Positions 1-30,548 of a stretch of 33,098 bases of DNA are shown here, piece after piece (the first letter of the stretch is position 1; every line of letters begins with the position of its first letter). Made by a program: the position numbers and the translations under genes. The DNA is from an uncultured OCS116 cluster bacterium (GTDB taxonomy: Bacteria > Pseudomonadota > Alphaproteobacteria > Rhizobiales > TMED25). The DNA is taken from assembly GCA_902613795.1 (NCBI GenBank), contig CACMIP010000007.1:1-33098 (forward strand), read 5' to 3'. The notes beneath the pieces are model-generated. The model searched no databases. It saw nothing but the letters and a program-made list of their open reading frames with translations, and had not been told where the DNA came from.

Positions 1-3000
1 AGAAGCAGCTGATAGATCAACCGTTAGCGCTTTCGAACTAACAGACTCAGCACCGTTTGAACTTGTTGCGTTAAAATCAATAGTCGGCAAGCCATCGTTA
101 TCTGTAATTGTATAAGTATGAGTATCGTCTGAACCAAGGGTTGCATTCGATGGATTAGAGAGCGTCAAAATAACGGTCTCATTTGCCTCATCTAGTGAGT
201 CATCATCTATGCTTGCTATAGTTATAGTTCCTGAGGTATTACCTGCTGATATCGTCAACGTACCGTTCGCGAGCGTGTAGTCAGTCCCGCCACCCGTCGC
301 TGTACCTGTCACAGCGAAATCGACTGTAATATCTTTTGCTGAGGCAGCGGATAAGTCGACTGTAACCGCTTTTGAATTGACTGACTCGGCTCCGCTTGAA
401 GCAGTGACATTAAAATCAACAGTTGGCGCCGCGTCATTATCAGTGATGGTATAGGTGTGAGCATCATCTGATCCAAGGGTTGCATTACTTGGATTAGATA
501 ATGTTACGATGACCGTTTCGTCAACCTCATCTAACGTATCGTCAACAATACTTGCTATCGTAATAGAACCGCTTGTACTCCCAGCTGGTATGGTTAAAGT
601 TCCATTTGCTAATGTATAATCTGTTCCGCTACCGGTTGCTGTCCCAGTTACGGTGTAGTCCACAGTAATATCCTGTCCCGAAGCTCCGGATAAATCAACG
701 GTTAAAGCTTTTGAGTCTACTGACTCTGCACCACTGGAAGATGTTACATTAAAATCAACTACTGGCGCGTCATCATTATCGGTTATGGTGTAAGTATGTG
801 TATCATCGGAACCAAGGCTAGCATTTGTCGGATTGGATAGCGTGACAATTACGGTTTCATCAGACTCATCTATAGCATCATCCACAATACCCGCTATGGT
901 GATAGTACCGGAAGTATCGCCCGCTGATATAGTCAATGTTCCATTTGCAAGCGTATAATCTGTGCCACTACCAGATGCTGTTCCCGTTACCGCATAATCT
1001 ACTGTTACGTCTTGGCCAGAAGCAGCTGAGAGGTCAACCGTTAATCCTTTTGAGCTAACCGATTCAGCGCCAGACGAGCTAGTAGTATTAAAATCAACTG
1101 TTGGTGCATCATCATTGTCTGTGATCGTGTATGTATGAACCTCATCGGTACCTATTGTGGCGTTTGATGGATTAGATAACGTAACGATGACTGTTTCATT
1201 TGCTTCATCTAAGGCATCATTCACAATGCCCGCAATTGTTATGGTACCGGTATTATCACCTGCTGATATGGTAAGCGTCCCATTGGCTAAGGTATAGTCT
1301 GTACCACCGCCTGTTGCTGTTCCTGTTACAGCATAATCTACTGTTACATCTTGGCCAGAAGCAGTTGAAAGATCTACCGTTAACGCGGCTGAGCTCGTTG
1401 ACTCCGCGCCAGATGATGAAGTTGTATTAAAGTCAATCTCTGGCGGACTATCATTATCTGTTATGGTATGAGTATATGTGACATCGCTATCTAAAGTGGC
1501 ATTTAATGGATTAGATAAAGTCAAAATAACAGTCTCATCTGCTTCATCAAGCGCGTCATCGATGATACCAGCTATGTTAGTTGTGCCTGAAATATTACCA
1601 GGGTTTATTGTTAGCGTTCCATTTGGTAATGTATAGTCTGTACCACCGCCCGTTGCTGTACCCGTTACAGCATAATCAACAGTTACCACTTTACCTGAAA
1701 GAGCCGATAATTTTATCGTCACTGTTTTCGATGATACAGACTCAGGATCAGTTGAGCTTGTTGTATAGAACTCAACCGTCGGTGCATCATCATTATCAGT
1801 TATTGTGTAGGTATGTGTATCATCACTTCCAAGGTTAGCATTCGATGGGCTTGAAAGTGATAAAATTACCGTTTCATTATCTTCATCTAAGGCATCATCG
1901 ACGATACTCGCAATCGTAATGTTTCCTGAGGTATTCCCTGCTGGTATTGTGAGCGTCCCATTAGCCAATGTGTAATCTGTACCACTTCCTGTTGCAGTAC
2001 CCGTAACGGAAAAATTAACCGTTACGTCAGCGCTATGTGATGAAGATAAATCTACCGTGATAGCTGCAGAAGATGCTGACTCAGATCCTGATGACGATGC
2101 GCTGTTAAAATCAACAGTTGGAATAGAATTGTCTGCAGCGGTGTCATTGTCTACAATAGTATAAGTGTGTACGTCATCCGATCCTAATGTGGCATTTGAT
2201 GGATTAGATAAGGTAACGATAACTGTCTCATTACTCTCAGCCGCGCCATCATCGACTATACCTGCAATTGTTATGGTGCCCGTCGTGTTACCTGCGGATA
2301 TAGTTAGCGTCCCGTTTGCTAGTGTATAATCTGTTCCGCTACCGGTTGCTGTACCTGTCACTGCAAAATCCACGGTCACATCTTGACCTGAGGCCGCTGA
2401 TAAATCAACGATTAAGGCCTTGGATGAGACAGACTCTGCGCCGTTTGATGTTACAGCATTAAAATCAACCACTGGCGCGTCATCATTATCAGTGATGGTA
2501 TAGGTGTGAGCATCATCAGAACCAAGACTTGCATTGCTTGGATTAGACAAGGTAACAATCACTGTTTCATTAGCTTCATCCAAAGCATCATCAACAATAC
2601 TAGCGATGGTTATTGTGCCGGATGTGCTTCCTGCTGGAATTGTTAGCGTCCCATTGGCCAATGTGTAATCTGTACCACTTCCTGTTGCCGTGCCAGTTAC
2701 CGTATAATCAACAGTGATATCTTTCGCCGATGTAGCTGAAACATCAACTGTAAGATTTTTTGAGCTTACAGACTCTGCGCCAGAAGAGCTAGTTGAATTG
2801 AAGTCAACCGTTGGTGCATTATCATTATCAGTGATGGTATAGGTGTGTGCATCGTCCGAGCCAAGTGTTGCATTGCTTGGGTTGGATAATGTGACAATAA
2901 CCGTCTCATCGACTTCATCAAGCGCGTCATCGACAATACTGCTGATAGTAATAGTACCGGATGTATTTCCAGCTGTTATTGTTAGTGTTCCATTGGCTAA

Positions 3001-6000
3001 GGTATAGTCTGTGCCACCACCCGTTGCTGTTCCCGTTACAGCGTAATCTACTGTTACATCTTGGCCAGAAGCAGCTGATAGATCAACCGTTAGCGCTTTC
3101 GAACTAACAGACTCAGCACCGTTTGAACTTGTGGTATTGAAGTCAACGACTGGCGGATTATCATTATCGTTTATTGTATATGTGTGTACATCATCAGATC
3201 CAAGTGTTGCATTAGTCGGGTTGGATAACGTGACAATCACAGTTTCGTTTGCTTCGTCTAGGGTATCATTTACAATACCTGCAATTGTAATTGTACCAGA
3301 TGTATTTCCTGCACTAATTGTTAAGGTACCATTTGCTAGTGTATAATCTGTTCCACCACCAGTTGCTGTTCCTGTTAAAGCAAAATCCACGGTCACATCT
3401 TGACCTGAGGCCGCTGATAAATCGACTGTTATTGCTTTGGATGAAGTAGACTCAGCGCCATTGGAAGTTGTTGTATTAAAATCTACAATGGGTGCGTCAT
3501 CATCATCGGTTATGGTGTATGTATGGGCATCATCAGAGCCCAGGCTTGCATTACTTGGGTTAGACAATGTGACAATCACGGTTTCGTTTGCTTCGTCCAA
3601 CGCATCATCAACAATACTAGCAATGGTTATCGTGCCAGTTGTATTTCCAGCGGGTATTGTTAGTGTTCCATTTGCTAATGTGTAATCTGTACCACTGCCT
3701 GTTGCCGTGCCAGTTACCGTATAATCAACAGTGATATCCTTTCCTGATGTTGCCGAGATATCAACTGTTAGATCTTTTGAGCTTACAGACTCAGCGCCAT
3801 TTGAACTTGTGGTATTGAAATCAACAACCGGTGCATTGTCATTATCAGTAATTGTGTAGGTATGCGCGTCGTCTGAGCCAAGTGTTGCATTATTTGGGTT
3901 GGACAATGTAACAATTACCGTCTCATCGACCTCATCAAGCGCGTCATCAATAATACCTGCGATGGTAATTGTTCCAGATGTATTTCCTGCAGGTATTGTT
4001 AACGTCCCGTTTGCGAGTGTAAAATCAGTCCCGCTTCCTGTTGCTGTGCCTGTTACGGTATAATCAACGGTTACATCTTGACCAGAGGCAACAGAAAGAT
4101 CAACCGTTAACGCTTTCGAGCTAACAGACTCAGCACCGTTAGAACTTGTGGTATTGAAGTCAACGACCGGTGGATTATCATTATCGGTGATTGTGTAAAT
4201 GTGCACGTCATCAGAGCCTAATGTAGCATTTGATGGATTTGACAACGTCAAGATTACCGTTTCATCTGCTTCATCTAATGTATCATTTACAATGCTTGCT
4301 ATTGTTATTGTACCAGATGTATTACCCGCAGATATGGTCAGTGTCCCGTTAGCTAATGTATAATCTGTCCCGCTTCCTGTTGCGGTACCCGTTACTGTAT
4401 AATCAACAGTAACGTTCTGCCCCGAGGCGGCAGATAAATCAACAGTAATTGCTTTGGATGAGGTAGACTCAGCACCATTGGAGGTCGTAGTATTGAAATC
4501 AACAACTGGTGCATTGTCATTATCAGTGATGGTATAGGTGTGTGCGTCATCCGAGCCAAGTGTTGCATTGCTTGGGTTAGACAATGTAACAATCACAGTT
4601 TCATTTGATTCATCTAAAACATCGTCAAGAATATTTGAAATGGTAATAGTACCCGACGTAGTTCCAGCTGCTATGGTAATATTTCCATTATCTAGTGTAT
4701 AATCTGTACCACTACCGGATGCAGTCCCAGTAACGGTAAAGTTCACTGTTACATCTTTGCTAGAGGTCGCAGATAAATCAACTGTCAAATCTTTTGATGA
4801 AACAGACTCTAACCCAGACGAACTCGTTGTATTAAAGTCAACAACTGGGGGATCATCATCATCAGTGATTGTATATGTATGAGTGTCATCAGAACCTAAT
4901 GTAGCATTTGTTGGGTTTGATAATGTTACAACTACTGTCTCATCCACCTCATCCAATGCATCATTTACAATACTAGCTATTGTAATTGTACTGGTAGTAT
5001 TGCCTGCTGAAATTGTGAGTGTTCCGTTGGTAAGGGTGAAATCCGTTCCACTGCCGGTAGCCGTTCCGGTAATCGCATAATCAACCGTCACATCCCTACC
5101 TGATACTGGCGTCAGATCAACAGTTAATGCTTTTGAGGATACGGACTCAGCTCCTGAGGAGGTAGTTGTATTGAAATCTACAACTGGTAAGTTGTCATTA
5201 TCTAAAATAGTGTATGTATGGACAGTATCAGATCCAAGTGTTGCATTAGTCGGGTTGGATAACGTGACGATCACAGTCTCATTATTTTCATCAAGTGCAT
5301 CATTTACTATTCCAGCGATTGTTATATTTGCTGAGGTATTACCAGATGTTATTGTTAATGTCCCGTTTGCCAGGGTATAATCGGTCCCGCTTCCTGTCGC
5401 TGTACCGGTGACGGTATAATTCACAGTAACGTTCTCCGAATAAGAATCAGATAGGTCAACAGTCAAATTAGCCGATGATGTCGACTCAAGTCCATTTGAG
5501 CTTGTTAGGTTAAAATCAACTGTTGGCTCCTGCTCGACAGCAGTAAAAACTCTTATGTAATCACCATATGTACCATTTTTAACACCGATCCTAAGAGTTT
5601 TACTATCTGAGCTAATTGAAACCCAGTCATGGGAAATTGTTGAGAATGATGTTGTATCAGTATAGAGATTTAGGTTCTCAAGCTCCCTTGCGTTAAATCC
5701 ATCATTACTTGACACAGGATATGTAGCGCCACTTTTAGAAACGTTAGAAAGGAAAATAGTTTTACTTGGATCATCTGAAAAACCATAAATTTCATTTTCG
5801 AATACGATTTCACCTACTTTGTCTGATCTATCCGATTTTGAGTGGTTGTCATTTAAGAAAATAAGATAGGAATTTATTGGAGTGGATGATGTATTTATTG
5901 AGACATTTGTATTACCATCATCATCAAAATCCATCGTCAGCGTTCCGGCATTTGAAATATTCTCCCTCTCAAGAGATACGATAAAATCGAAACCCGAATC

Positions 6001-6195
6001 AGAACGCTGCCCATTACTATTTTGTTTCCTAGATCTAAAGTCTGTAGCTGAATGTTTTTCTTCAACAAAGCTATTAACCGAAGAAATTCCATTAGCTGCG
6101 AAGGAATACCCGAGGAATATGAACTGAAAAATGAATAAAAGCCCAAATAGTAATGGCACTCTCATCAAAAGTGTATGTATATTTAAGTTATTCAT
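1..6195 (-). CDS. Giant secreted Calx-beta repeat protein (5' part, runs off the left edge)
   Basis: The frame is open for 2065 codons from ATG at 6195 to base 1 and continues beyond the window. Residues 1-33 form a signal peptide: a hydrophobic core ending YSFA, with likely cleavage before ANG. Residues about 35-225 are a beta-rich region with GEIVFENEIYGF and GDYIRVFTA. This loosely resembles an uncharacterised domain of other secreted proteins. From residue 226 there are 16 complete Calx-beta units of about 113 residues plus part of another. Each runs VDFN, AESVSS, TVDLS, TGTATGSGTDYTLANGTLTI, LDExxETVIVTLSNPxNATLGSD, YTITDNDN. Calx-beta domains bind calcium and occur in large surface or adhesion proteins, so a role in adhesion or as a cell-surface stalk is inferred. 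Codon phase checked at four places along the array agrees, so I see no frameshift. G+C is about 42% in a sample, above the neighbours. No strong ribosome site precedes the ATG. Confidence 0.88.
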   Translation of the reverse strand, partial: MNNLNIHTLLMRVPLLFGLLFIFQFIFLGYSFAANGISSVNSFVEEKHSATDFRSRKQNSNGQRSDSGFDFIVSLERENISNAGTLTMDFDDDGNTNVSINTSSTPINSYLIFLNDNHSKSDRSDKVGEIVFENEIYGFSDDPSKTIFLSNVSKSGATYPVSSNDGFNARELENLNLYTDTTSFSTISHDWVSISSDSKTLRIGVKNGTYGDYIRVFTAVEQEPTVDFNLTSSNGLESTSSANLTVDLSDSYSENVTVNYTVTGTATGSGTDYTLANGTLTITSGNTSANITIAGIVNDALDENNETVIVTLSNPTNATLGSDTVHTYTILDNDNLPVVDFNTTTSSGAESVSSKALTVDLTPVSGRDVTVDYAITGTATGSGTDFTLTNGTLTISAGNTTSTITIASIVNDALDEVDETVVVTLSNPTNATLGSDDTHTYTITDDDDPPVVDFNTTSSSGLESVSSKDLTVDLSATSSKDVTVNFTVTGTASGSGTDYTLDNGNITIAAGTTSGTITISNILDDVLDESNETVIVTLSNPSNATLGSDDAHTYTITDNDNAPVVDFNTTTSNGAESTSSKAITVDLSAASGQNVTVDYTVTGTATGSGTDYTLANGTLTISAGNTSGTITIASIVNDTLDEADETVILTLSNPSNATLGSDDVHIYTITDNDNPPVVDFNTTSSNGAESVSSKALTVDLSVASGQDVTVDYTVTGTATGSGTDFTLANGTLTIPAGNTSGTITIAGIIDDALDEVDETVIVTLSNPNNATLGSDDAHTYTITDNDNAPVVDFNTTSSNGAESVSSKDLTVDISATSGKDITVDYTVTGTATGSGTDYTLANGTLTIPAGNTTGTITIASIVDDALDEANETVIVTLSNPSNASLGSDDAHTYTITDDDDAPIVDFNTTTSNGAESTSSKAITVDLSAASGQDVTVDFALTGTATGGGTDYTLANGTLTISAGNTSGTITIAGIVNDTLDEANETVIVTLSNPTNATLGSDDVHTYTINDNDNPPVVDFNTTSSNGAESVSSKALTVDLSAASGQDVTVDYAVTGTATGGGTDYTLANGTLTITAGNTSGTITISSIVDDALDEVDETVIVTLSNPSNATLGSDDAHTYTITDNDNAPTVDFNSTSSSGAESVSSKNLTVDVSATSAKDITVDYTVTGTATGSGTDYTLANGTLTIPAGSTSGTITIASIVDDALDEANETVIVTLSNPSNASLGSDDAHTYTITDNDDAPVVDFNAVTSNGAESVSSKALIVDLSAASGQDVTVDFAVTGTATGSGTDYTLANGTLTISAGNTTGTITIAGIVDDGAAESNETVIVTLSNPSNATLGSDDVHTYTIVDNDTAADNSIPTVDFNSASSSGSESASSAAITVDLSSSHSADVTVNFSVTGTATGSGTDYTLANGTLTIPAGNTSGNITIASIVDDALDEDNETVILSLSSPSNANLGSDDTHTYTITDNDDAPTVEFYTTSSTDPESVSSKTVTIKLSALSGKVVTVDYAVTGTATGGGTDYTLPNGTLTINPGNISGTTNIAGIIDDALDEADETVILTLSNPLNATLDSDVTYTHTITDNDSPPEIDFNTTSSSGAESTSSAALTVDLSTASGQDVTVDYAVTGTATGGGTDYTLANGTLTISAGDNTGTITIAGIVNDALDEANETVIVTLSNPSNATIGTDEVHTYTITDNDDAPTVDFNTTSSSGAESVSSKGLTVDLSAASGQDVTVDYAVTGTASGSGTDYTLANGTLTISAGDTSGTITIAGIVDDAIDESDETVIVTLSNPTNASLGSDDTHTYTITDNDDAPVVDFNVTSSSGAESVDSKALTVDLSGASGQDITVDYTVTGTATGSGTDYTLANGTLTIPAGSTSGSITIASIVDDTLDEVDETVIVTLSNPSNATLGSDDAHTYTITDNDAAPTVDFNVTASSGAESVNSKAVTVDLSAASAKDITVDFAVTGTATGGGTDYTLANGTLTISAGNTSGTITIASIDDDSLDEANETVILTLSNPSNATLGSDDTHTYTITDNDGLPTIDFNATSSNGAESVSSKALTVDLSAAS
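2401..4500 (-). repeat. Higher-order repeat with a three-domain (about 1017 bp) period
   Basis: By eye, sequence near 2400-2500 matches that near 3419-3520 and 4436-4530. Sequence near 3060-3170 matches 4076-4186, and 2740-2950 matches 3757-3967. The offset is always about 1017 bp, three Calx-beta units. Similarity at this offset looks higher than between adjacent units, which suggests that blocks of three domains were duplicated together. Confidence 0.65.
3067..3132 (-). repeat. 66-bp exact copy of window bases 1-66
   Basis: Bases 1-66 and 3067-3132 are identical in a direct comparison and diverge at the next base (67 versus 3133). The offset of 3066 bp is in frame and equals nine domain units. 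The left copy may extend beyond the window. Identity that includes silent positions points to recent duplication or gene conversion within the array. Confidence 0.85.
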
Positions 6196-29275: not shown

Positions 29276-30259
29276 ATGGATAAAAATTACTTAAAAATGG
29301 GACCCCATGACGTTGGCGGAGAAGAATCACTGCCAATTGACACCACTGATAATAATATGACGCACTGGGAAAAATATGCAAATGCTCTTCGCATTGTGGT
29401 TTCCTCAAAACGTATCATTACGCTGGATGAACTTAGATACCACACTGAAGCGCTTGGTGACCAATATTTTGAAATTGGATATTTTGAGAGGAACTGTTTA
29501 TCACTTCACAATATTTGTATCCAGAAGGGAATTTATGATATGGAGCTTTTTCAGAAAATAAAATCAAAAAAAATTTCTGAATTTGATGTGCCAATTGTGG
29601 ACCTGCCAGATGTGGCTACTATCAATCACATACATGATGGCAAACCACACTTACATAATGTGTCAGATTTTCAAGAAGATGAAAGTGGCGATGGACCACC
29701 TGATTACTATTTTGATACACTCGCGATTGCGCAAATATTCATTGATCAAGGGTTGATTACGAATGATGATATTGCCTTAAAAATTGAGCAGTTTGATAAT
29801 GTTTTTCCCAATAGAGGGAAAGCTGTTGTAGCTAAAGCATGGCATGATAACTTATTTAAAGAAGAGCTCATCAAGGATGCAAAAAAAGCAATATCTGATA
29901 TTGGTATAGAACTTGAGACTTTTGCTGATATTATATGCATGCCCCAAACAGATACTGTTCACCACATTGTTGTCTGCACATTATGCTCTTGCTACCCACG
30001 TACTTTACTCGGTATGCCACCTTCTTGGTATAAATCAAGAAGTTACCGATCTAGGGTTGTGCACGAGCCACGTGAGGTATTGGCAGAATTCGGTACAATT
30101 GTACCCGAAAGCAAAGAAATCAAAGTTCATGACTCAAACGCTGATATGAGATATTTAATTTTACCGCCAAGACCGTCAAATACCGAAGACTTATCCGAAC
30201 AAGAATTATCAAAACTTGTGGAACGAGATTATCTTGTCGGGGTAAGATTACCAAAGTAA
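29276..30259 (+). CDS. Thiocyanate hydrolase/nitrile hydratase: N-terminal beta half fused to the catalytic cobalt-type subunit
   Basis: This 327-residue protein joins two parts. Residues about 8-95 match the N-terminal half of the nitrile hydratase beta subunit (ScnB in thiocyanate hydrolase), including MGPHDVGGE at 8-16. Residues about 141-327 are the catalytic subunit (NHase alpha, ScnC). Its metal claw C234-T-L-C237-S-C239 has two cysteines that are oxidised in known enzymes and bind non-corrin cobalt in the CTLCSC class. Also present are PPSWYKS, YRSRVV, PREVLAEFG and RDYLVGVRLPK. CYPR after the claw, and PHDVGGE, resemble thiocyanate hydrolase as I recall it more than classical nitrile hydratase (CYPW). 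A linker at 115-140 is histidine-rich (HIHDGKPHLH). Reaction: thiocyanate to carbonyl sulfide plus ammonia, or nitrile to amide. The partner gene follows after 4 nt. Confidence 0.85.
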   Translation: MDKNYLKMGPHDVGGEESLPIDTTDNNMTHWEKYANALRIVVSSKRIITLDELRYHTEALGDQYFEIGYFERNCLSLHNICIQKGIYDMELFQKIKSKKISEFDVPIVDLPDVATINHIHDGKPHLHNVSDFQEDESGDGPPDYYFDTLAIAQIFIDQGLITNDDIALKIEQFDNVFPNRGKAVVAKAWHDNLFKEELIKDAKKAISDIGIELETFADIICMPQTDTVHHIVVCTLCSCYPRTLLGMPPSWYKSRSYRSRVVHEPREVLAEFGTIVPESKEIKVHDSNADMRYLILPPRPSNTEDLSEQELSKLVERDYLVGVRLPK

Positions 30260-30263
30260 AGCT

Positions 30264-30548
30264 ATGGATTCAAAATTCAAAATAAATGATGAAGTAATCG
30301 TCGATAGCAGGAGTTCAACCGGTCATTGCAGGACGCCTGCATATATTAGAGGAAAAAAGGGTATTATTGAGAGAATTTGTGGTAGGTTCCCCAATCCAGA
30401 AGAGATCGCTTTGTGCAAAAAAGATCCAAAAATAGTAACGCTGTACAGATGCCGCTTCAAGCAAATGGATGTTTGGGATAATTATTCAGGTAAAGATTCT
30501 GATACGATAGAGCTTGAGATATATGAACATTGGCTAAACGATGCATAA
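30264..30548 (+). CDS. C-terminal half of the nitrile hydratase beta subunit (ScnA-like small subunit)
   Basis: The 94-residue protein is the SH3-like C-terminal domain of the NHase beta subunit. It has KFKINDEVIVDSR, GHCRTPAYIRGKKGIIER and a final IELEIYEHWL in the expected order. This corresponds to the small alpha subunit of thiocyanate hydrolase. It starts 4 nt after the fused gene and is presumably translated with it. With the fusion it would rebuild a complete alpha/beta enzyme. It carries no metal ligands of its own. Confidence 0.85.
   Translation: MDSKFKINDEVIVDSRSSTGHCRTPAYIRGKKGIIERICGRFPNPEEIALCKKDPKIVTLYRCRFKQMDVWDNYSGKDSDTIELEIYEHWLNDA

Follow-up and report, generated by a model that had tools for sequence, protein, structure and literature searches.

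A putative cobalt-type nitrile hydratase of marine bacteria in which the N-terminal half of beta is fused to the alpha subunit

Introduction

Nitrile hydratases (NHases) and the thiocyanate hydrolase ScnABC are the closest described systems to the gene pair reported in this study. The CTLCSC claw is taken by us to be the Co-type motif, distinct from the Fe-type, and the selectivity of ScnABC for thiocyanate presumably arises from the pairing of ScnB Arg90 with ScnC Arg136. PDB titles exist for mutants of this kind, R136W (3vyg) and aW116R (3vyh). With reference to the accessible portions of the literature, it can be observed that ScnABC reportedly has an activator, P15K, that in Co-type NHases the activator swaps alpha subunits (PMC3511329), and that Comamonas testosteroni Ni1 is reported as a precedent for maturation free of an activator. 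The same portions describe an engineered beta-alpha fusion NHase that is still dependent on P14K (PMC4709657) and eukaryotic fusion NHases whose activators are given as undiscovered in the available text of a review (PMC7193024), and beta-alpha fusion genes are stated, in the part of the source at hand, to be absent from prokaryotic datasets (PMC3323583).

In this study, we analysed a window of 33,098 nucleotides from an uncultured OCS116 cluster bacterium (contig CACMIP010000007.1), near the end of which a first-pass annotation had proposed a rearranged thiocyanate hydrolase or nitrile hydratase. At its other end, the window (1-6195 (-)) carries an open-ended giant repeat protein of 2065 aa in the window, with repeats of about 100 residues that look Calx-beta-like by eye.

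Results

The anatomy first claimed for the pair, beta-N fused before a cobalt-claw subunit (CTLCSC at 234-239) and beta-C as a gene of 94 residues, is confirmed by the open reading frames and Pfam (Table 1). The NHase_beta_N match in the 327-aa protein scored 43.4 bits against a cut-off of 21.5, the NHase_alpha match spans aa 149-323, and Arg23 of betaC aligns with the Arg of the NHase beta GHTRLP, which we take to be betaArg157; the positions of Arg54 in betaN and Arg23 in betaC are presumably those of the catalytic arginines of NHase beta. Pfam and alignment thus find the CxLCSC alpha claw, together with beta N- and C-domains bearing both conserved arginines, as expected of the NHase/SCNase superfamily, and unlike in classical nitrile hydratase there is no whole beta subunit in one gene. 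Only 4 bp separate the stop of the first gene from the start of the second, so that the two frames are probably translated together. The genome itself is 1.32 Mb (completeness 97.29) and displays a single NHase_alpha and a single NHase_beta_N match, both in the 327-aa gene, with no second NHase_beta_N match at E<=1, and a single NHase_beta_C match.

Table 1. Features of the gene pair in the window, and an amidase gene of a related locus
Feature	Position	Strand	Basis or remark
Fused betaN-alpha subunit	29276..30259	(+)	327 aa; coordinates include the stop codon
NHase beta N-terminal domain, aa 9-97	29300..29566	(+)	Pfam PF21006 (NHase_beta_N) 4e-11; ScnB/NHase-beta alignment; weak fold match, Z about 7
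PHDVGG motif	aa 10-15 of 327-aa protein		Inside the NHase beta N-terminal domain
Leu53-Arg54	29432..29437	(+)	Alignment: Leu53 at ScnB Arg90 position, Arg54 at ScnB Arg91 position
Linker, aa 98-148	29567..29719	(+)	Between betaN and alpha domains
H118-I-H120-D-G-K-P-H125-L-H127 in linker	29627-29656	(+)	Where unfused alpha subunits have their His-rich N-tail
NHase alpha domain, aa 149-327	29720..30256	(+)	Pfam PF02979 1.9e-67; fold matches
Metal claw C234-T-L-C237-S238-C239-Y-P-R242	29975..30001	(+)	Read from sequence
Separate NHase beta C-terminal subunit, 94 aa	30264..30548	(+)	Pfam PF02211 (NHase_beta_C) 1.1e-17; carries GHCRTPAYIRGK
Amidase of L013	L013:7314-8654	(-)	Between tandem fused copies; Pfam

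AlphaFold2 was run on the fusion chain alone, with an alignment of 23 rows and betaC not in the model. The best model reached a mean pLDDT of 80.9 and a pTM of 0.74, with mean pLDDT values of 67.7-70.4 for the other four. Its alpha part resembles NHase alpha at a Z of about 23 and ScnC at a Z of 21.8 (rmsd 2.1 over 188), and residues 28-99 resemble NHase beta 3a8m at a Z of 7.2 (rmsd 2.8 over 72), a value of about 7 being in the range where a match can mean only a common arrangement and is not decisive alone. The N-part nevertheless falls in the NHase-beta/ScnB family, as had been supposed, since it carries HDxGG and an invariant Arg equivalent to ScnB Arg91.

A search with the fused sequence met 132 relatives, of which the best 80 were kept and gave 78 distinct loci, among which the share of fusions is biased upward by the choice of query, and each locus was classified by reading all frames with betaN, betaC and alpha profiles made for this analysis. 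We observed betaN and alpha in one frame in 24 of these 78 loci (best 80 of 132 relatives), coming from many separate assemblies, which rules out a missed stop or an assembly join as the source of the fusion and shows that the survey of genomes suggested at first pass does meet the same fusion recurrently. In 52 of the 78, betaN, betaC and alpha are separate genes in that order. The partition seen in the pair was rightly called unusual at first pass. The remaining two do not hold the full set, as L025 is without betaC and L051 has alpha only, at a contig edge. BetaC lies directly downstream in 19 of the 24 fused loci and is absent near the fused gene in five (L018, L021, L022, L023 and L024). 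By record title, the fused loci come from OCS116, Rhodobiaceae, other Hyphomicrobiales/Alphaproteobacteria and SAR116, as well as from MAGs titled Rhodospirillaceae and Arenicellaceae and from gammaproteobacterium TMED78, two of the sources being gammaproteobacterial MAGs, and the 52 three-gene loci are mostly titled as Alpha- and Betaproteobacteria.

Pairwise dN/dS against L001 and L005 was 0.06-0.12 in betaN, linker, alpha and betaC, and 0.05-0.12 against L006, with dS >1; against L007 and L010, where dS is saturated in several parts, the maximum was 0.22 (linker, L010). Judging from these ratios, betaN, linker, alpha and betaC are all under purifying selection, and the claw residues and Arg54 are invariant across 23 fused rows. 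The fused arrangement is real, conserved and recurrent in bacteria.

Some irregularities were noticed among these loci. Five loci counted within the 52 (L052, L054, L055, L060 and L075) are four-gene clusters, betaN-betaN-betaC-alpha, with an extra betaN-like gene in front that may be a paralogue or an activator. Seven loci (L027, L031, L032, L035, L040, L041 and L053) come from MAGs titled Bordetella parapertussis, Chitinophaga or Modestobacter, and since L031, L035 and L053 group with Betaproteobacteria rows in the alpha tree, such labels look doubtful.

Samples of genomes give a view of how frequent the fusion is. In the order sample (199 genomes), six genomes of family f1 hold a match in frames of 327-335 aa; G000, G054, G003 and G178 were read as fused, G091 and G125 were judged by frame length, and G054, G003 and G178 are probably the same records as L001, L011 and L012. 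G153, of the same genus, and 77 further genomes of this sample are without a match. The class sample (385 genomes) contains 140 with a match at 1e-40, and among the matches listed an open frame spans both parts in G000, G603, G719 and G808, twice each in G603 and G719, and the match in G766 spans both parts with a TAG inside. In the phylum sample (398 genomes), 35 have a match at 1e-60, and a span of both parts was seen in the window's own genome only.

For the trees, we used alpha domains with a minimum length of about 150 aa and discarded near-copies above 88% identity. In the first maximum-likelihood tree (87 rows after one long classical row was left out), all 15 fused rows lie on one side of a branch supported at 99/92 and found in 100% of 200 bootstrap trees, the same group having a support of 87 in a quick tree, and the fused clade joins the Betaproteobacteria-type three-gene clade (with L049) at 100/98. 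In the enlarged tree (86 rows, classical rows thinned to 12, two long rows dropped), the split-beta clade stands apart, at 100/100, from the classical rows together with L108, the fused group of the window, now 16 rows, sits inside the split-beta clade at 97/79, and a second fused group of five rows (family f153: G603, G719 and G808) is placed elsewhere among three-gene rows at 100/98. A single origin of all fusions, with the 21 fused rows held together, was rejected (p-AU 0.0042; group chosen after a first tree). From these trees, the fusion seems to have arisen at least twice, the second time in another alphaproteobacterial family. Counts of changes alone cannot separate gain from loss of the fusion; the fused rows nest among betaN-betaC-alpha operons, which makes fusion with displacement of betaC the simpler reading, and the most fitting account is that the fusion descends from a three-gene betaN-betaC-alpha operon, with betaC moved behind it or elsewhere in the genome. 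In L108 (G041:C21), a CYPW alpha of the classical clade precedes betaN and betaC, each in a frame of its own, possibly an independent split of beta or a frameshift.

Two loci resemble what an intermediate might look like. In G766 (L176:7506-8492, G766:C14), a single TAG plus three codons is all that parts betaN from alpha in their shared reading frame; betaC is missing at this site and occurs in a three-gene cluster on another contig. In L025, which lacks betaC, betaN and alpha are adjacent. Both arrangements plausibly represent a step towards fusion. The sole betaC match of each f153 genome lies away from the fusion; G808 and G719 have it within a three-gene cluster, and G603 has it beside a betaN at the end of the stretch examined. 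G572 combines a single fused copy with a betaC that belongs to a three-gene cluster. G573 has a pair of fused copies along with a betaC standing alone and a whole-beta NHase, and L013, L015, L016 and L017 each harbor two fused copies with one betaC. Pairs of fused copies with one betaC, and betaC genes placed elsewhere in the genome, suggest that betaC may be shared in trans. A search for betaC in G575 and G576, whose completeness is not given, found none in either, and five fused loci have no betaC nearby, so that a dependence on betaC may not be strict.

A His-rich N-tail occurs on most unfused alpha subunits of the family and on ScnC (MSADHDHDHDHDHDHK), and in the fusions this tail forms the linker, as HIHDGKPHLH in the window and HADHHGHDHDHT in L161. 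The two bacterial fusions, though of separate origins, are both joined at a His-rich stretch matching the alpha N-tail, and the accessible text on the opisthokont eukaryotic fusions likewise describes a His-rich stretch at the joint (PMC3323583; PMC2603476). The 40 aa that precede alpha contain at least 4 His in 26/29 fused, 56/62 split and 37/42 classical alphas. The linker as a stand-in for a missing activator was therefore rejected, the tail being as frequent in classical alphas; the (His)17 of a eukaryotic fusion is also reported, in the available part of the review, as unnecessary for metal incorporation (PMC7193024).

Discussion

We consider it likely that the gene pair encodes a non-corrin cobalt hydratase of the NHase superfamily with the composition (betaN-alpha)+betaC and a small nitrile as substrate. 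One enzyme would be formed from the fusion chain and the separate betaC chain, and by analogy with the beta halves in NHase and ScnABC, betaN and betaC would close over the alpha claw. The claw cysteines would bind non-corrin Co(III), two of them becoming oxidised, and a metal-bound water or hydroxide would hydrate the C-N triple bond, so that a small nitrile would be converted to an amide that an amidase might then cleave. As betaN is covalently tied to alpha, the textbook swap of free alpha subunits by an activator would presumably not work, and it is plausible that the joint dictates a putative assembly path, as the first-pass annotation suggested.

The same annotation had pointed to thiocyanate from PHDVGGE and CYPR. 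As a thiocyanate hydrolase, the pair would convert SCN- to carbonyl sulfide and ammonia, the fusion being a rearranged ScnB+ScnC and betaC being ScnA, a reading that we judge unlikely. It has the split beta in its favor, together with CYPR as in ScnC (Arg136), PHDVGGE as in ScnB, the position of ScnC within the split-beta part of the tree, although its branch is long and uncertainly placed, and a betaC that matches NHase beta (7e-9) and ScnA (8e-8) about alike. CYPR, however, was found in 29/29 fused and 59/61 split-beta alpha domains (the two others being one CYPK and one CYPW, L108) and in 0/20 whole-beta domains, near-copies included, of which 18 have W and 2 have H after CYP; 23 alpha domains left unclassified have 17 W, 2 R (L025 and L051), 2 F and 2 H. 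Being common to the whole split-beta clade, CYPR is a marker of the clade and not of the substrate, and it was rejected as evidence for thiocyanate. PHDVGGE is present in 25/28 fused, 2/66 split and 0/20 whole-beta rows, a likeness to ScnB that is real at the sequence level and by itself silent on substrate. Among the two pocket arginines of ScnABC, Arg242 (of CYPR) is present but the Arg90 equivalent is replaced by Leu53, and other than ScnB only 2/97 fused or split betaN rows (L024 and L072) display Arg at that position.

Searching the pair against the ScnA/B/C and NHase alpha/beta families, as proposed at first pass, upheld the membership of the superfamily but not the assignment to ScnC. 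The ScnC equivalog TIGR03887 scored 172.4 bits against a cut-off of 291.45, short by 119, and 0/398 genomes of the phylum sample reached that cut-off. The nitrile_alph equivalog TIGR01323 scored 218.7 against 249.85 bits, short by 31, and is exceeded by the split-beta relatives L100 (255.1) and L034 (264). PDB sequence matches were better to NHase than to the thiocyanate hydrolase, both for the alpha part (NHase alpha 1.6e-55 vs ScnC 1.2e-38) and for the betaN part (NHase beta 8e-7 vs ScnB 0.028).

The genomic context also bears on the substrate. In L013, L015 and L016 (titled SAR116) and in L017 (titled Alphaproteobacteria), the two fused copies flank an amidase gene, identified by Pfam in L013 and by clustering in L015, L016 and L017, and an amidase-family gene is found beside the fused copy of L018, again by clustering. 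Such a position favours a pathway from nitrile through amide to acid and speaks against thiocyanate. The three-gene clusters of L052, L054, L056 and L078 also have amidase-like genes at a distance of 0.7-4 kb; the association with an amidase is strong only in the five fused loci just named. Four amidase-family proteins, of which one is GatA-like, are encoded in the window's own genome, all of them away from the fusion and none close to the L013 amidase (best 28.5% identity). A small nitrile is accordingly the favoured substrate in our reading of these sequences, and thiocyanate is possible, without an indication for it.

Other neighbours recur around these loci. A VOC gene is found downstream in the window and L001-L006, a peroxidase-family gene upstream in the window, L001-L010 and L020, and an acyl-CoA dehydrogenase near the OCS116 fusions L002-L010 and L020 (by clustering) and near L022 (L022:3456-4649 (+)). 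The UbiD decarboxylase family appears near six three-gene loci (by clustering; e.g. L052:3334-4764 (-)) and near the G766 pair (L176:5954-7354 (-)). The recurring UbiD and acyl-CoA dehydrogenase neighbours have no clear link to the enzyme, and five neighbour genes scanned in the second fusion group held no common hint of a substrate.

With regard to maturation, an activator was searched with TIGR03889 in 21 genomes, and 7 of them gave a match over the cut-off. Nine fusion-only genomes (G000, G054, G091, G125, G003, G178, G577, G578 and G579) displayed no match at E<=1, G577-G579 being counted as fusion-only provisionally. Five further genomes showed split-beta genes and no classical NHase, and none of them exceeded the cut-off; G034 had no match, and G403, G564, G572 and G574 stayed below it (E 0.02-0.6, mostly their own betaN genes). 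Altogether the activator was over the cut-off in 0/14 genomes where only the split-beta or fused enzyme type was seen, and it was found in the classical-type genomes that were searched. The absence of a recognisable activator gene fits a chain in which no free alpha could be swapped in the textbook form. The engineered fusions that need their activator speak against an easy activator-free maturation, and a diverged activator may have been missed by the models.

Two activator candidates were dropped. The window's own genome gave no TIGR03889 match at E<=1, and its only CobW-family hit belongs to a frame recognised by eye as Era. A 389-aa protein encoded downstream of alpha in 10 Betaproteobacteria-type loci (L026:7525-8694 (+)) gave no match in Pfam (1e-6), NCBIfam (1e-3) or PDB (E<=1); it has a HELGH-like stretch by eye.

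It could be argued that the fused N-part is itself a tethered P14K-like activator, a relative of beta-N and not structural beta-N, because TIGR03889 weakly matches betaN genes (one at 5e-4) and found no free activator gene. We regard this as highly improbable: the N-part aligns with ScnB and NHase beta, retains HDxGG, a structural motif, together with the conserved Arg54, and is not matched by TIGR03889 at E<=1. Beta would also lose its N-half, as no second NHase_beta_N match (E<=1) exists in the window's own genome. A decaying or non-functional remnant, which the failure to reach either equivalog cut-off might suggest, is scarcely credible with purifying selection in all parts and an invariant claw and Arg54.

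Within the preferred reading of a nitrile-hydrating cobalt enzyme, a bolder proposal is that the marine fusion clade represents an activator-independent cobalt hydratase, which would mature as one betaN-alpha chain, be closed by a small betaC lid that paralogous chains could share in trans and act on a nitrile of the oligotrophic ocean that is used by no characterised member of the family. We put this forward tentatively and lean against it as a whole; the idea of the shared lid comes from the two fused copies with one betaC in SAR116 loci.

The beta-alpha fusion has so far been treated as a eukaryotic character, and bacterial fusions are found here. Our literature search, which covered titles, abstract openings and selected passages and had most subscription papers outside it, found no published description of the bacterial fusion, no biochemical work on any member, and no paper linking nitrile hydratase with SAR116. 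Since two bacterial fusions have separate origins, the architecture appears to arise readily and is weaker evidence of single descent. As naturally occurring proteins, the bacterial fusions could serve to test how cobalt is inserted if alpha is not free to swap, and the wider split-beta clade is easily misread as thiocyanate hydrolase from its CYPR motif.

Compared with ScnABC of Thiobacillus thioparus (PDB 2dd4), the pair shares a beta in two chains, the CTLCSCYPR claw, PHDVGGE and the His-rich N-tail of the catalytic subunit, but ScnABC consists of three separate chains whereas betaN and alpha here form one ORF, Arg90 of ScnB is a Leu, and the score with the ScnC model is far below its cut-off. 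We take the order of the thiocyanate hydrolase genes to be scnB-scnA-scnC, that is betaN-betaC-catalytic. The review, in its available part, writes it as alpha-beta-gamma-activator (PMC7193024). The likeness to ScnABC accordingly holds for the partition and may hold for gene order. Classical Co-type NHases, such as those of Pseudonocardia thermophila (1ire) and Pseudomonas putida (3qxe), share the alpha fold, the claw and the beta-N and beta-C domains, and are the best PDB sequence matches of the fusion; they differ in a single gene for the whole beta, in CYPW or CYPH instead of CYPR (20 whole-beta loci) and in forming a separate clade in the tree. The eukaryotic fusions (Monosiga and others; PMC2603476, PMC3323583), as described in the accessible passages, also place beta sequence before alpha, with the His-rich joint in opisthokonts, but they fuse the whole beta, whereas here only the N-half is fused and the C-half is a separate gene. 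The engineered fusion NHase (PMC4709657), as far as its available text goes, is alike in its covalent beta-alpha chain, but it is man-made, contains the whole beta and requires P14K.
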